The notes below the pieces were generated by a model. The model did no database searches and was not told where the DNA came from. It saw nothing but the letters and a program-made list of their open reading frames with translations. Positions 10,747-22,721 of a stretch of DNA of 64,000 nucleotides are shown piece by piece. Each line of letters begins with the position of its first letter. Position 1 is the stretch's first letter. The DNA lies in assembly GCF_000382445.1 (NCBI RefSeq), contig NZ_KB905473.1:388819-452818 (forward strand). Direction: 5' to 3'. Position numbers and translations under genes: made by a program. The stretch is from Phocaeicola massiliensis B84634 = Timone 84634 = DSM 17679 = JCM 13223 (GTDB lineage: Bacteria; Bacteroidota; Bacteroidia; Bacteroidales; Bacteroidaceae).

Positions 10747-11322
10747 ATGTCTAAGCTTTATATAATAGCAGGTTGCAATGGGGCCGGAAAAACGACGGCA
10801 TCCTACACAGTGCTTCCCGAAATATTGGACTGTCGCGAGTTTGTCAATGCCGACGAAATCGCAAAAGGTCTTTCTCCTTTTAATCCCTCAAGTGTAGCCA
10901 TTGAAGCCGGCCGGCTAATGCTTAAGCGCATTGGCGAATTGCTTTCTGCCGGAGTCAGCTTTTCTGTTGAAACAACGCTCTCTACCCGTTCTTATATTAA
11001 TCTCATTCATCAGGCGCAAAGTCAGGGCTATAGTGTCAGTCTGATTTATTTTTGGTTGAACTCACCTGAATTGGCTATTGAACGGGTAAAGCAACGTGTT
11101 GCCAATGGAGGGCATGATGTGCCGGCGCCTATCATTCGTCGTCGTTACCGTGCGGGATTGGATAACTTCTTCCATATTTATATGTCATGTGTGGACTATT
11201 GGATGCTGGCAGACAATAGCTCTACACCGCGTGTTATTGTGGCTGATGCTTTTCGTTTGCGGGAAGAGCCACATATTTATAATCATGAACTCTTTAATAA
11301 AATCAGAAGTTATGTCAACTGA
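10747..11322 (+). CDS. Zeta-toxin-like P-loop kinase
   Basis: A 191-residue P-loop protein of the zeta-toxin/AAA_33 group. Walker A is GCNGAGKTT at residues 9-17. The segment FVNADEIAKGLSPF with the conserved Asp and the later FSVETTLST match zeta toxins, which phosphorylate UDP-N-acetylglucosamine and block wall synthesis. RVKQRVANGGHDVP fits the Arg-rich lid that contacts ATP. No epsilon/PezA-type antitoxin precedes it. Instead a 75-residue ORF overlaps its end by 11 bases. It could be a toxin with a downstream partner, or a housekeeping small-molecule kinase of the same fold; toxicity is not shown by the sequence. Confidence 0.8.
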   Translation: MSKLYIIAGCNGAGKTTASYTVLPEILDCREFVNADEIAKGLSPFNPSSVAIEAGRLMLKRIGELLSAGVSFSVETTLSTRSYINLIHQAQSQGYSVSLIYFWLNSPELAIERVKQRVANGGHDVPAPIIRRRYRAGLDNFFHIYMSCVDYWMLADNSSTPRVIVADAFRLREEPHIYNHELFNKIRSYVN

Positions 11323-18074: not shown

Positions 18075-18908
18075 ATGAAGAAACCTGTTCTTTATTTGTT
18101 GCTTGCCGCAGTGCTGTTTACTTCCTGTGCCACTGCTTCTCTGTCGAAGTATCGCGGAGTGGGACGCATCAAGCAGTATGATTTTTACAGTTATGACGTT
18201 CCGTCGGCATTCGACGGATTCCGTATCGGCTTTGCATCGGATTTTCATTATGAAAGTCGTTTCACGCGCAAGCGTCTTGACAATGCGATACGTGCATTAC
18301 AATCTTTAAATGCCGATGTATTATTGTTGGGGGGAGACTACGGCAGTCCGAAAGGAGGGGATATGGACACATTGTTCACCGCATTGGGAAAGGTGCTTAC
18401 ACCGTATGGTATCTATGGTGTGATGGGGAACCATGATTACAGTTATTGCTATACGAAGGTGGCGGAAGCCATGAAGAAGAATAATGTGCATTTGATGGAA
18501 CACAAGAGCTATAAATTGATGAAGGACGGGCAACACATTATCATCAGTGGCGTGCGTAATCCTTTTGACCTGAAAAAGAATGGTGATTCGCCTTCACAAC
18601 ATTTCCCTGCCGATGATTTTATTCTCCTGCTGACCCATACGCCCGACTATGCCGAAGATACGGACGTGTCTAATGCCAATCTGGTTTTGGCCGGGCATAC
18701 GCATGGCGGGCAGGTGAGTTTGTTCAAGAAGTACTCTCCTGTAAAGCATTCCATTTATGGTAACCGTTTTCTGACCGGTCGGAAAGAGAATAGTGCCGGT
18801 GTTCCTATTATTATAACGAACGGACTGGGTACTTCGAGAATGAATGTCCGTCTGTTTACTCCCAGTGAGGTGGTTTTGGTGGTACTTCATCGGGTAGAGA
18901 AAAAATAA
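18075..18908 (+). CDS. Calcineurin-like metallophosphoesterase lipoprotein (YkuE/YaeI type)
   Basis: A 277-residue two-metal phosphoesterase, probably membrane-anchored in the periplasm. Residues 1-17 are a signal with the lipobox LFTSC. The five calcineurin motifs are in order: DFHYE, GGDYG, GNHDY, LLTHTP and GHTHGG. Relatives hydrolyse phosphodiesters or lipid-linked phosphates; the substrate is unknown. A TATCTTTA at about 18042 may be its promoter, back to back with that of menA. No co-transcribed gene follows. Confidence 0.88.
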   Translation: MKKPVLYLLLAAVLFTSCATASLSKYRGVGRIKQYDFYSYDVPSAFDGFRIGFASDFHYESRFTRKRLDNAIRALQSLNADVLLLGGDYGSPKGGDMDTLFTALGKVLTPYGIYGVMGNHDYSYCYTKVAEAMKKNNVHLMEHKSYKLMKDGQHIIISGVRNPFDLKKNGDSPSQHFPADDFILLLTHTPDYAEDTDVSNANLVLAGHTHGGQVSLFKKYSPVKHSIYGNRFLTGRKENSAGVPIIITNGLGTSRMNVRLFTPSEVVLVVLHRVEKK

Positions 18909-19076
18909 TCTGAAAAAAACGGCTTTCGGTGCAACGTTTGGAGGAATGTTTGCGTCTAATAGTAAAAGAACACAAGATAAAATGTGAACACAAACACAAA
19001 GTAGAACGCGGAAAGCGACAGATAAGTATGTTATACCGTATTTTAAATTAGTTATTATACCGAGAATTGTGTGTTT

Positions 19077-19119
19077 CCCCGTAAGGTATTACAGTGTAAT
19101 ATCCTTGCGGGTTTTTCTA
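19077..19119 (+). terminator. Terminator-like hairpin downstream of the phosphoesterase
   Basis: CCCGTAAGGTATTAC and GTAATATCCTTGCGGG form a near-perfect 15-bp stem with an AGT loop, followed by TTTTT. It lies 170 bases after the phosphoesterase stop; no gene is seen in 18909-19076. Confidence 0.82.
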
Positions 19120-19199
19120 TTTTATCGGTTAAACAGCCGGTTTTACCGGTGAATTGTCCGGTTCAAAGCGGCTCATCTGGAAGAAACCGAAGGAAGGTT

Positions 19200-19568
19200 T
19201 ACTTTTGCATTTATAATCATCTCAAAAAGGAACCTTTTGGAAACATTCCTTCATCTTTTTGAAAAAGACTTAATTCTTTTTCGGAAACTCTTTGGGCTTT
19301 TTTGAAAAGCTCGGTGTGTTTTTCATGTAGGGACAAATTGCATCCCCCCTCTCTAATCCGGTCATTCCTTCTTTTCCGTTCATCCTTACATTTTAATTAT
19401 AATATACAGATAATCAATCGGCTAAGAATGACAGAACCTCCTCTCATCCTCCCTTCAGCCGTGCTTCCCAAGTCCCTTCACAATCTGCATTCAGCTTTTG
19501 TCCATCCAAAAGAAGTTACTTTGAAAGTAACCGGACTTAGTGACTAATTTAATCATTTACTAAATATA
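19200..19568 (+). other. Candidate untranslated or short-peptide transcript
   Basis: TACTTTTG at 19200-19207 is a good -7 element, and a strong terminator closes the unit at 19569. The interior is rich in A5/T5 tracts that could pair with each other. The only neat small frame is 39 codons (ATG 19428 to TAA 19547, MTEPPLILPSAVLPK...), with no recognisable family and no clear ribosome binding site. This could be an sRNA of about 380 nt, a peptide gene, or non-functional. Confidence 0.3.
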
Positions 19569-19597
19569 AAGGAGCATTCTTCGGAGTGCTCCTTTTT
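19569..19597. terminator. Bidirectional terminator with a UUCG tetraloop
   Basis: AAGGAGCATTC (19569-19579), TTCG loop, GAGTGCTCCTT (19584-19594), then T on the plus strand and TTTATATTT on the minus strand. It closes the transcript from the left. It also lies just beyond the leftmost nadD tail, so it was probably the original nadD terminator. Confidence 0.85.
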
Positions 19598-19611
19598 TGC
19601 TACCGTTGTTT

Positions 19612-19700
19612 TTATCTCGTCAGTCGTTCATTGACCGCCGGATGCAGGAAATACCTTACGTCTTTCCCTTCCGCCAGAGCCCGGCGGATAAAAGTGGAAC
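19612..19700 (-). pseudogene. Duplicated 3' end of nadD (fragment)
   Basis: This stretch repeats the last 29 codons of nadD (20523-20611) with three differences in about 90 bases, including the stop codon. It encodes [20 protein letters not shown] and onwards, and homology stops at about 19700. It is separated from the intact nadD by the MNT/HEPN pair, so it is the leftover tail of the old gene or a target duplication. Confidence 0.88.
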
Positions 19701-19775
19701 AGATGAAATGGCATTCATTTATTAGGAAAAATGGTAGATATTTTGTTTCTTTGTAAAAGAGATAAAAGCTGAATT

Positions 19776-20099
19776 ATGAAAAAGAACAGGGAAATAGTGC
19801 TGAATGCAATTAGAAGTACTTTGAGCCAGATAGCTCCTGCCGGAACAAAAGTTGTTCTTTTTGGTTCGCGGGCTCGCGGAGATGCTCGCGATGATTCAGA
19901 TTGGGATATTTTAATCATACTCGACAAGACAAAATTGGAGGCGGACGACTATGATAATATTTCATATCCACTCAGAGAATTGGGGTGGAAATTAAAGGAA
20001 TGCATTAATCCGGTGATGTATACTCTTAAAGACTGGATGAAGTATAGTTTCTCGCCTTTTTATCACAATGTAACCAATGAAGGAATAATATTACTATGA
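19776..20099 (+). CDS. MNT-domain nucleotidyltransferase (MntA-like antitoxin candidate)
   Basis: A 107-residue minimal nucleotidyltransferase. The motif VLFGSRARGDARDDSDWDIL fits the GSx10DxD pattern of MntA proteins, with both metal-binding Asp residues present. In characterised HEPN/MNT pairs the MNT protein adds AMP to a tyrosine of the HEPN RNase and silences it. The stop overlaps the next gene by 4 bases (ATGA), the usual layout. The pair sits in an inserted segment bounded by two copies of the nadD tail. Confidence 0.87.
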   Translation: MKKNREIVLNAIRSTLSQIAPAGTKVVLFGSRARGDARDDSDWDILIILDKTKLEADDYDNISYPLRELGWKLKECINPVMYTLKDWMKYSFSPFYHNVTNEGIILL

Positions 20100-20500
20100 G
20101 TATGAACATGGATGACATAGAAGCGATTGTCTTTTATCGTAAGCAGAAGTCTCGTACGACACTGAAAGAAGCAGAAGATATGATAGATAGTTCTCATTGG
20201 AATTTAGCTATCCAACGATTGTATTATGCATCATTTTATATGGCATCTGCTTTATTACTGAAAAATAAGATTTCAGCCTAGAGTCATAATGGCGTGGTTA
20301 GCCAATTAGGTTTCCATTTTGTGACCACAGGAAAGTTGGATAAAAGTGAAGGGCGATTATATTCACGTTTGTTGCAAAATAGAATAACCGGTGATTATAA
20401 TGATTTCTTTGACTTTACAGAAGAGGATGCTGTTGAATTGTTGGAACCAACCCGAAAACTTATAAATAAACTCGAGCAATTAATAGAAGAGAGTGAATAG
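20096..20500 (+). pseudogene. HEPN-domain protein gene interrupted by an in-frame amber codon
   Basis: The frame reads 61 residues (MSMNMDDIEAIVFYRKQKSR... to LLLKNKISA), meets TAG at 20279-20281, then continues in the same frame for 73 residues (SHNGVVSQLGFHF... to LEQLIEESE). Together the halves make a normal HEPN domain of about 134 residues, with the typical RLYYASFYMASALLL helix and the later SRLLQNRITGDYNDF segment. HEPN partners of MNT proteins are RNases in toxin-antitoxin pairs. A single base change from AAG or CAG would explain the stop. Unless the codon is suppressed, the toxin half is inactive. Confidence 0.85.
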
Positions 20501-20522
20501 AACAGTTTTAATTATTTAGACT

Positions 20523-21098
20523 TTATCTCGTCAGCCGTTCATTGACCGCCGGATGCAGGAAATACCTTACGTCTTTCCCTTCCGCCAAAGCCCGGCGGAT
20601 AAAAGTAGAACTTATTTCCAATAAAGGAGTATCGACCTGTTGCACAGAGGGAGGAAGTGCGGCCGGGTCAATCGTGTATCCGGGACGTGGATATATCATT
20701 ATCCGATGGCGTTGTATTATTTCATCGGAATGATACCAACGCGGGAAGATAGCCCAATTGTCCGCCCCGATAATAAGCGTAAACTCACGTTCGGGATAGG
20801 CGGACTGTAAAGCATCGAGCGTATGTATCATGTAAGAAGGGCGGGGAAGATGGAACTCAAAATCAGAAGCACGGAATTTGGGATAATCTGCGATGGCAAG
20901 TTGCACTAACTCCAGTCGCAGACTGTCATCCCATAAATCCGTTTGCTTCTTTAAAGGATTATGCGGAGAAACCAAAAACCATATTTCGTCCAATTCGCTG
21001 TACTCACAAAGGTAATTGGCCAAAGCTAAATGCCCGATGTGAATAGGATTGAATGAACCACCGAATATTCCTGTTCTTATTTTGTTCTCTTTTGCCAT
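20523..21098 (-). CDS. nadD: Nicotinate-nucleotide adenylyltransferase
   Basis: A 191-residue enzyme of NAD synthesis that transfers AMP from ATP to nicotinate mononucleotide. The nucleotidyltransferase motif [14 protein letters not shown] is at residues 13-26 and the second motif ISSTFIRR is near residue 163. The last 90 bases are repeated at 19612-19700 beyond the MNT/HEPN pair, so the present 3' end may have arrived with the insertion while keeping the gene intact. The start overlaps a 67-residue gene by 22 bases. It is the last gene of yicC-gmk-orf-nadD. Confidence 0.95.
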
Positions 21099-21280
21099 AC
21101 TTTAAAGTTCCAAATCTGCATGATGGCAACGATGACCATAATGCCGGCAATGATATATTTCTGCATGGAGATAGCCATAACAGCTACCGCCAAGGCTGTC
21201 AGTCCGATAATGACACAGAGTATCATCATCCGCAGGGCTAATCTTTTGGGGTCTTTGATTATCATCTGTTTATTTTGCAA
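21077..21280 (-). CDS. Small membrane protein between gmk and nadD
   Basis: A 67-residue protein with a basic N-terminus (KDPKRLALR) and two closely spaced hydrophobic segments ([20 protein letters not shown] and [16 protein letters not shown]). It overlaps gmk by 11 bases and nadD by 22, so it is certainly translated as part of the operon if these overlaps are maintained. No family is recognised and no function is assigned. Confidence 0.75.
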
Positions 21281-21839
21281 TAAAGTCCTGAATTATTTTC
21301 AATGTTTCCGCTTCGGCTTTCTCCAACTCGTCGTTTACGATTACCACATCAAACTTGTCGGCAAAACTCAATTCAAACTCTGCTTTGGCAATGCGGCTTT
21401 CGATTACCTCAGGTGCATCTGTTCCCCGCCCTACCAGTCTGTTGCGAAGCTCTTCTATGCCCGGGGGCTGGATGAAAAGTGACAAAGCCTGTTCGCCATA
21501 AAACTTTTTGATGTTACAGCCACCTACTACATCTACATCGAAAACCACATTCTGTCCGGCTTCCAACTGCTTCTCCACCTGCGCTTTCAGTGTTCCGTAA
21601 AAACGGTTTTCGTACACTTCTTCGTATTCCAGGAATTCATTGTTGGCAATGCGTTGTTTGAATTCTTCAGGGGTGAGGAAGAAATACTCCACTCCGTGCT
21701 TCTCTGTGCCGCGGGGCGGGCGGCTGGTGGCAGAGATAGAGAATGCCAGATTCAGGTTCTGTGTCAGCAGATAATTGATAATCGTCGATTTGCCGGAACC
21801 TGAAGGGGCTGAAAATATGATAAGCTTACCTTTTTTCAT
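21270..21839 (-). CDS. gmk: Guanylate kinase
   Basis: A 189-residue cytosolic kinase converting GMP to GDP. The P-loop is FSAPSGSGKST at residues 8-18, and the GMP-binding segment is ISATSRPPRGTEKHGVEYFF. The stop codon of yicC directly abuts its start. The yicC-gmk order is common to many bacteria. Confidence 0.96.
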   Translation of the reverse strand: MKKGKLIIFSAPSGSGKSTIINYLLTQNLNLAFSISATSRPPRGTEKHGVEYFFLTPEEFKQRIANNEFLEYEEVYENRFYGTLKAQVEKQLEAGQNVVFDVDVVGGCNIKKFYGEQALSLFIQPPGIEELRNRLVGRGTDAPEVIESRIAKAEFELSFADKFDVVIVNDELEKAEAETLKIIQDFIAK

Positions 21840-22721
21840 CTACATAACGTTTAATACTTGTTCTTTGATTTGTTCCAACTCGTCCTTCATCTGCACTACG
21901 ATGTTCTGCATCTCTGCATGGTTGGACTTGCTGCCGGTAGTATTTATTTCACGTCCCATTTCCTGAGCAATGAACCCCAGTTTTTTACCCTGTCCGTGGC
22001 CGCTTGCCATTGTTTCGCGGAAATAATTCAGGTGATTGGACAGACGCTGTTTCTCTTCGTTGATATCAAGTTTCTCAATATAGTAAATCAACTCTTGTTC
22101 CAGGCGGTTCTTGTCATAATCCACGCTGATGGTTTTTTCAAGTGCATCTGTAATGCGTTCACGGATTTTTGTCACACGTTCGGTCTCATACGGTTCGATG
22201 GATTTCAACAAACGTTCGATGTTGTCGATTTTCTCATTGAATTTCTTTTCGAGCGCCGCTCCCTCTTGTTTACGGAAATCCACCAAGTGAGCAATTGCTT
22301 CTTCCACTACTTGACGTACCACTTCCCATTCTTCTTCCGATAGCTCTATGATTTCATCTTTACTCATGATATCCGGCATGCGAAGTAATGTTGCCATGGA
22401 ATATTCATTAGGGTAATTTCCCCAGCCTAATGCTTCGGACAGTTTTTGCATTTGTTGGTCATAGCTTTGTGCCAAGGCTATATTGATTTGTGCGGCAGAA
22501 GTACTTGCTTCTTTTTCTATCCACAGGCTGAAATCCACTTTTCCACGTTCCAATGATTTGGAAACCATATTACGGATTTCTATTTCTTTTTCGCGGTATA
22601 AGGGTGCAATGCGTGTAGATAAATCCATAGCCTTGCTATTCAGTGACTTTATCTCTACGTTAATTTTTTTATCTCCGAATGTAGCACTTGCTTTGCCGTA
22701 TCCGGTCATTGATTGTATCAT
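21840..22721 (-). CDS. yicC: YicC/YloC-family endoribonuclease
   Basis: A 293-residue protein starting MIQSMTGYGKA, the diagnostic N-terminus of this family. The C-terminal domain (DUF1732) ends LGFIAQEMGREINTTGSKSN, with the conserved acidic and Asn residues. E. coli YicC and relatives have been reported as RNases acting on small RNAs; the targets here are unknown. The start at ATG 22721 is set by the conserved N-terminus and by the promoter at 22740. It heads the yicC-gmk-orf-nadD operon. Confidence 0.93.
   Translation of the reverse strand: MIQSMTGYGKASATFGDKKINVEIKSLNSKAMDLSTRIAPLYREKEIEIRNMVSKSLERGKVDFSLWIEKEASTSAAQINIALAQSYDQQMQKLSEALGWGNYPNEYSMATLLRMPDIMSKDEIIELSEEEWEVVRQVVEEAIAHLVDFRKQEGAALEKKFNEKIDNIERLLKSIEPYETERVTKIRERITDALEKTISVDYDKNRLEQELIYYIEKLDINEEKQRLSNHLNYFRETMASGHGQGKKLGFIAQEMGREINTTGSKSNHAEMQNIVVQMKDELEQIKEQVLNVM

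Follow-up and report, generated by a model that had tools for sequence, protein, structure and literature searches.

The window, the whole stretch of DNA analysed here (64,000 nucleotides from Phocaeicola massiliensis B84634), contains an intact nadD gene whose 3' tail occurs a second time nearby, with a pair of MNT/HEPN-type genes between the two tails. The features of the site, in window coordinates, are as follows.

18075-18908, plus strand: metallophosphoesterase-like gene (NCBIfam matches below cut-off), the other border of the variable site
19034-19207: intergenic stretch, 84% identical to P. massiliensis TSDC17.2-1.1 and 86% to P. faecalis, with flanks at 98-99% to TSDC17.2-1.1
19568-19595: 12-bp hairpin and T-run beside the outer tail, a probable intrinsic terminator
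19611-19700, minus strand: outer (free) copy of the nadD tail, found by direct-repeat search
19701-20521: insert of 821 bp between the two nadD tails, absent from the TSDC17.2-1.1 locus
19776-20099, plus strand: gene for an MNT-type nucleotidyltransferase, antitoxin-like, 107 aa, open (Pfam NTP_transf_2, E 5.9e-11)
20096-20500, plus strand: HEPN gene (PF05168), broken by an in-frame TAG at 20279-20281
20522-20611, minus strand: inner copy of the nadD tail, forming the 3' end of the intact gene with the stop codon and one further base
20523-21098, minus strand: nadD, intact, 191 aa (TIGR00482 above its cut-off)

The direct repeat 19611-19700/20522-20611 is 90 nt long with 87 of 90 positions identical (97%) at a spacing of 911, and corresponds to nadD nt 488-576, the last 89 nt of the gene, plus one base, in direct orientation. 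This agrees with an initial annotation of this DNA, made from the sequence alone, which had reported the nadD tail twice in the same orientation with three differences. These differences lie at nadD nt 492, 511 and 564 and all three are synonymous, for which the chance is 0.017 if any substitution is allowed and 0.056 if only transitions are. Since the cassette lies between two nadD tails, nadD stays intact, its coding sequence ending in the inner copy, and the earlier proposal that the insertion keeps the gene functional therefore holds. The hairpin at 19568-19595, which had been called a strong terminator next to the outer copy, does fold stably (-17.9 kcal/mol, z -5.1) but is missing from the list of a consensus terminator scan. 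A 1.1-kb query across the nadD site found one matching place in the genome (4.65 Mb, 15 contigs), and Rfam gave no match at gathering threshold over 18500-22000. A dispersed intergenic repeat occupies 19248-19518 of the window, with portions that resemble many TSDC17.2-1.1 records (about 75-88% identity).

The insert proved to be the MNT/HEPN pair of about 0.8 kb that had been described, with Pfam matches for its genes, which lie on the strand opposite to nadD. The in-frame TAG, on which the initial annotation was silent, splits the HEPN gene into 20096-20281 and 20294-20500, each matching PF05168, and a stop is absent at this position in three aligned relatives; the broken HEPN gene suggests that the module is decaying in this genome. 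The MNT protein scores 35.2 bits with the MntA NCBIfam model, below the cut-off of 60, and PF01934, the HepT-type family, has no match in this genome, the MNT partner being PF05168. The nadD cassette thus differs from type VII HepT/MntA toxin-antitoxin systems, which are recognised by MntA above cut-off and a PF01934 partner, while it has the general MNT/HEPN layout of a nucleotidyltransferase gene followed by a HEPN gene, here stop-interrupted. Elsewhere in the window, a gene for an AAA/zeta-toxin-like protein (10747-11322) lies between a DUF4488 gene and the gene for ribosomal protein L13.

Comparison with other genomes supported the claim that the cassette is an insertion. A nadD match was found in 59 of 61 Phocaeicola genomes and a second nadD tail in one, the genome studied here; among 46 tested nadD loci (46 of the 65 returned by the search) a second tail was found in none, and matches of 18-26 bp beside the stop were seen in three. 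TSDC17.2-1.1, the one other strain of the species that was found, and the sister species P. faecalis each carry a single nadD tail and lack the cassette, so that relatives do not all share the same layout at this spot. The flanks align with TSDC17.2-1.1 at 99.4% over 6579 bp and at 98.05% over 5079 bp. The expectation of empty sites with a single nadD tail next to the terminator was correct as to the tail but not as to its neighbourhood, since the site in these relatives is not beside the 19568 hairpin; instead, a 7-8-kb module lies between metallophosphoesterase and nadD in TSDC17.2-1.1 and P. faecalis (L160, L140). We take the genes of this module to encode RND efflux and membrane-fusion proteins, a sensor kinase and a LytTR regulator. 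It qualifies as the alternative cargo that had been anticipated at the same place, but it comes with no second nadD tail. Of the module, the genome studied here has matches over just 175 bp at this site and 81 bp in another place. Because the content between metallophosphoesterase and nadD differs, the site is variable, and because the module is present in TSDC17.2-1.1 but not here, more than one event separates the two strains. In 18 of 61 Phocaeicola genomes the two border genes lie at most about 1 kb apart on one contig.

The low identity at 19034-19207 points to DNA having been replaced from there to nadD. This raises the alternative that the duplication arose earlier and elsewhere and that the whole metallophosphoesterase-nadD block was received by homologous recombination in the flanks, as a minimal mobile element would be. 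Such a transfer would account for a segment from about 19034 to 20521 that is unlike TSDC17.2-1.1 between flanks at 98-99%, and for the absence from the block of the 7-8-kb module and one small gene present in TSDC17.2-1.1, but no donor allele was seen, and the outer tail is nearer to TSDC17.2-1.1 (88/90) than to P. faecalis (91.7% of 84), so that this portion of the block looks native; we consider block transfer improbable. Among the Phocaeicola genomes searched, no nadD gene directly followed by MNT/HEPN was seen, the closest approach being an MNT gene in G020 that lies some 3.3 kb away from nadD. The nadD gene of P. faecalis (L140/L002) has lost its usual stop, seemingly because about 46 bp were deleted, and reads on for about a dozen codons; this simpler account led us to reject its nadD end as the ancestral tail. 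A phage or plasmid carrying the nadD tail was likewise rejected, a 29-base pattern having 0 matches in viral_contigs. Two 'Bacteriophage sp.' records, MT839374.1 and MT836768.1, match nadD, but the match continues in coding sequence well beyond the tail and both look bacterial; in one of them the nadD frame is broken.

To which of the two tails the term original applies depends on the position considered. At the three differing sites, in nadD order, the inner copy has T, T, G and the outer C, C, A, compared with T, T, A in TSDC17.2-1.1 and T, T, G in P. faecalis, the final G of P. faecalis being uninformative because it may stem from the deletion at that point. Nearest the stop, TSDC17.2-1.1 shares its base with the outer copy and not with the inner, and in the 18 positions past the repeat it is matched at 13 beside the outer copy and at 4 beside the inner (13 or more matches were reached in 121 of 100000 shuffles), which is what an original outer and an imported inner copy would give. 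At the two 5' sites, however, it is the inner copy that agrees with TSDC17.2-1.1 and P. faecalis, so the initial assignment fits the stop-proximal part but not the remainder. The pattern fits a resident T, T, A tail and an incoming C, C, G tail joined by one crossover between sites 2 and 3, with the proviso that half of the random placements of three changes would equally resemble a single crossover and that three sites are too few for proof.

We tentatively favour, at somewhat below even confidence, the view that a tail-bearing fragment entered nadD through one crossover of RecA type within the tail, a mechanism that we infer from these patterns. A piece of DNA in which a nadD tail was joined to the cassette, for instance a fragment ligated into a circle once conjugation had delivered it, would have recombined within the resident tail; the intact nadD would then end in a partly incoming copy, and the displaced resident tail would remain as the free copy beside the old downstream sequence. 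The two tails would then permit loss or exchange of the cassette by ordinary homologous recombination. For conjugation in E. coli, PMC3240628 describes how linear DNA circularises and then undergoes a single crossing-over. The synonymous tail differences count in favour of this crossover because they are expected between two working alleles. Against it stand the lack of a nadD-MNT/HEPN donor among the Phocaeicola genomes searched and the TSDC17.2-1.1 site, which is not cleanly empty but holds the 7-8-kb module.

The main rival is insertion with long target duplication, in which illegitimate recombination, by a staggered break with fill-in or by template switching, would have copied about 90 bp of the target, the tail differences arising later. 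The identities of the inner (89/90) and outer (88/90) tails to TSDC17.2-1.1 are such as drift would also give, and there is precedent in restriction-modification genes (excerpts of PMC3874152 and PMC3031569). That all three tail differences are synonymous, even though a free tail is under no constraint, speaks against this route, which we regard as unlikely here yet well worth weighing. The two may also both apply, target duplication making the first copy at a new target and the crossover spreading that copy.

Similar layouts recur around other small toxin-antitoxin (TA) genes in Bacteroidaceae. A match to the MNT protein occurs in 86 out of 301 Bacteroidaceae genomes, counting the one studied here. 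A first set comprised 60 regions around the better MNT matches plus the window, four matches of the same score range (three at contig ends) having been left out, and a locus was scored positive if a direct repeat of at least 45 bits had both copies within 600 bp. After four of the 61 cassettes had been dropped at contig edges (two of these four had long repeats in an earlier look), long flanking direct repeats were found at 13 of 57 MNT loci, or 12 of 56 when the window is set aside. Tiles of equal length from these regions had such a repeat in 60 of 7513 cases and gene-boundary controls in 4 of 269 (3/237 single genes and 1/32 pairs); the difference between MNT loci (12/56) and gene-boundary controls is significant (p = 2.5e-7).

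For comparison between families a common rule was used, with one TA gene per locus and repeat copies within 1 kb. The close MNT/HEPN family gave 14/55 (5 dropped), ParE 3/24 (6 dropped) and HepT 3/24 (6 dropped), against 1/41 for matched small ORFs. The excess over small ORFs was significant for MNT/HEPN (p 0.0017) but not for ParE or HepT taken alone (p 0.14), and MNT/HEPN did not differ significantly from ParE (p 0.25). A second set included 41 more distant MNT places, four of which had already been looked at before, and yielded 2/39 for distant MNT relatives (2 dropped), 0/11 for ParE (6 dropped) and 6/20 for HepT (1 dropped), four of the six HepT repeats being short (27-46 bp), with a tile control of 32/2367. 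Both sets joined give 9/44 for HepT and 3/35 for ParE; the sets leave aside weaker, partial or contig-end MNT, ParE and HepT places. Enrichment of flanking repeats is therefore clear for the close MNT/HEPN family and suggestive for HepT, with little or none for ParE and the distant MNT relatives. The idea that the repeats are exclusive to MNT/HEPN was rejected, as HepT and ParE loci have them too.

The repeats themselves are diverse. Their lengths range from 27 to 450 bp across positive loci, and a single common attachment sequence was rejected, since the repeats of 12 loci, compared with one another, share nothing; in a further comparison three of 12 repeats had one or two weak matches in the regions of other genomes. 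Copies of a gene end with the gene kept are seen at nadD and at an amidase gene beside a YoeB/ParE pair (P. faecalis and this genome), while genome G102 has, next to a ParE gene, a 116-bp tail copy (95%) of a gene matching Porph_ging, G013 has a copy of the tRNA-Met end with an apparent terminator beside a HepT gene (105 bp, 83%), and G278 is a less clear case with a 104-bp gene tail copy. In G286, an identical 43-bp piece of the head of a sigma gene flanks the cassette, and ends other than tails therefore also occur. At L396 (3784-4768) a HepT gene lies between 99-bp repeat copies of 100% identity, probably a young insertion. Other repeats are intergenic and some of those are dispersed. It was thus rejected that all repeats are locus-specific: those of G111, G204 and partly G217 are dispersed, and that of L223 is repetitive in its own region. 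In genome-wide counts, which cover G111, G204, G217, G064 and G278 among the positive loci, the G111 repeat has 29 matches (21 over 90 bits, including the two flanking copies) and the G204 repeat 47 (14 over 65 bits), while the G064 and G278 repeats are in essence confined to their own loci. In G204, pairs of this one repeat about 0.9-1.1 kb apart enclose differing small cargo (L213, L216, L222, L247, L255), namely three MNT cassettes, with HEPN detected in two, and two further units, presumably one MNT/HepT-like pair and one exonuclease gene.

This diversity bears on each of the readings. Differing long repeats at TA cassettes, such as the 43-bp sigma-gene head and the 99-bp HepT pair, are what target duplication would produce, and the tRNA, sigma-gene head and intergenic repeats need a first duplication event that the crossover cannot supply; on the other side, the piece copied in G286 lacks the gene's own upstream border, which target duplication does not readily explain. 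A site-specific recombinase, acting in trans or since lost, could have placed the cassette at the gene end as in gene-3'-end islands, and repeats at gene 3' ends are indeed seen more than once (nadD, amidase, Porph_ging gene, tRNA-Met); nadD and the amidase gene also have hairpins there. Yet the 12 compared repeats share no sequence, their lengths vary widely, a gene head and dispersed repeats are among them, and no recombinase was found among the 20 proteins flanking the nadD cassette (8.5-33.1 kb of the window) or in the insert, in line with the integrase having been reported absent; we hold this explanation to be quite improbable. Least probable is that part of nadD was duplicated in tandem and then trimmed by deletion, or that the assembly is faulty: long paralogous stretches surround the duplicated tail in G102, but at nadD the duplication covers just 90 bp and lies well inside a long contig, and like layouts occur in unrelated assemblies.

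For movement of a cassette together with a tail copy, which counts in favour of the crossover, the best evidence comes from sequence comparison at the amidase locus, where exchangeable TA-type cassette arrays follow the amidase gene (L325 4617-6935; L324 5227-8376; L335 4100-6602). In this genome the order is amidase, DUF3990 module, YoeB/ParE pair and amidase-tail copy (110 bp, 96%); in P. faecalis it is amidase, YoeB/ParE pair, tail copy, MNT/HEPN and HepT/MNT; and in TSDC17.2-1.1 amidase, DUF3990 module and a HepT/MNT cassette. The YoeB/ParE pair and amidase-tail copy of this genome and P. faecalis are 98.0% identical over 715 bp, while two aligned blocks upstream of the pair are at 87.7% and 90.3%, so the cassette moved as one piece with its tail copy. 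Between this genome and TSDC17.2-1.1 identity is 99.2% as far as a cassette border, after which different cassettes follow. Six borders besides the genes' own ends were examined, a set that leaves out the P. faecalis MNT/HEPN-HepT/MNT border: copies of the amidase tail or of its terminator stand at four, one has only a 31-bp partial match to a tail copy, and neither tail nor terminator is repeated where, in this genome, the DUF3990 module meets the ParE pair. Cassettes and tail copies at this locus thus differ among strains as exchangeable units. The array adjoins an apparent polysaccharide locus.

How small chromosomal TA pairs move when no mobile element is visible is, to our knowledge, an open question; one published paper (PMC7157771) reportedly deals with TA pairs in Tn3 transposons. 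In searches of open-licence PMC literature we found no description of such a layout for MNT/HEPN or in Bacteroides. Our observations suggest that the arrival of a small TA pair often brings in, or leaves behind, a copy of neighbouring sequence, with no integrase belonging to the pair. A wider and rather doubtful generalisation would be that small TA pairs of Bacteroidaceae are integrase-free cassettes which use a copy of a host-gene tail, often with its terminator, as a homologous landing site, keep the host gene working and form exchangeable stacks, in some likeness to integron cassettes without integrase. If long target copies, some of them gene ends, commonly mark the arrival of TA pairs, this trace is countable genome-wide and the mechanism testable by one recA experiment; it might also explain how TA pairs come to lie next to housekeeping genes such as nadD and leave them intact.

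Some integrative elements use the 3' ends of genes or tRNAs, with a direct repeat that keeps the gene working. The nadD site shares with them the repeat restoring the gene, but the cassette is 0.8 kb long, no integrase was found with it, and repeat length is variable elsewhere. Insertion with long target duplication of restriction-modification systems is said to have been described by Nobusato 2000 and Furuta 2010. In the nadD site and in such insertions a small addictive gene pair without transposase lies between direct repeats of roughly 100 bp, and the repeat is single in relatives without the insert; unlike in those systems, the cargo is MNT/HEPN (elsewhere HepT or YoeB/ParE) rather than restriction-modification genes, several of the repeats are gene ends, and the two tails may be different alleles. 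For restriction-modification genes, repeats of the order of 100 bp are given in the excerpts of PMC3874152 and PMC3031569. With the minimal mobile elements of Neisseria, as far as the excerpts of PMC3898611 describe them, the site has in common differing whole-gene cargo between two conserved genes, here metallophosphoesterase and nadD, with no recombinase found, but here the tail of a border gene is directly repeated and the host is a gut member of the Bacteroidaceae. For the T6SS effector-immunity arrays of Vibrio cholerae, growth by homology-facilitated illegitimate recombination has been proposed (PMC5361080, in excerpt), and these share serial toxin-type modules at a conserved anchor with older 3' ends left behind; there, according to the same excerpt, the anchor lies upstream of the module and effectors are displaced, whereas here the host gene is kept intact. 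We read the nadD cassette as an integrase-free, target-duplicating insertion with TA cargo, near to what Kobayashi has called 'insertion with long target duplication'.
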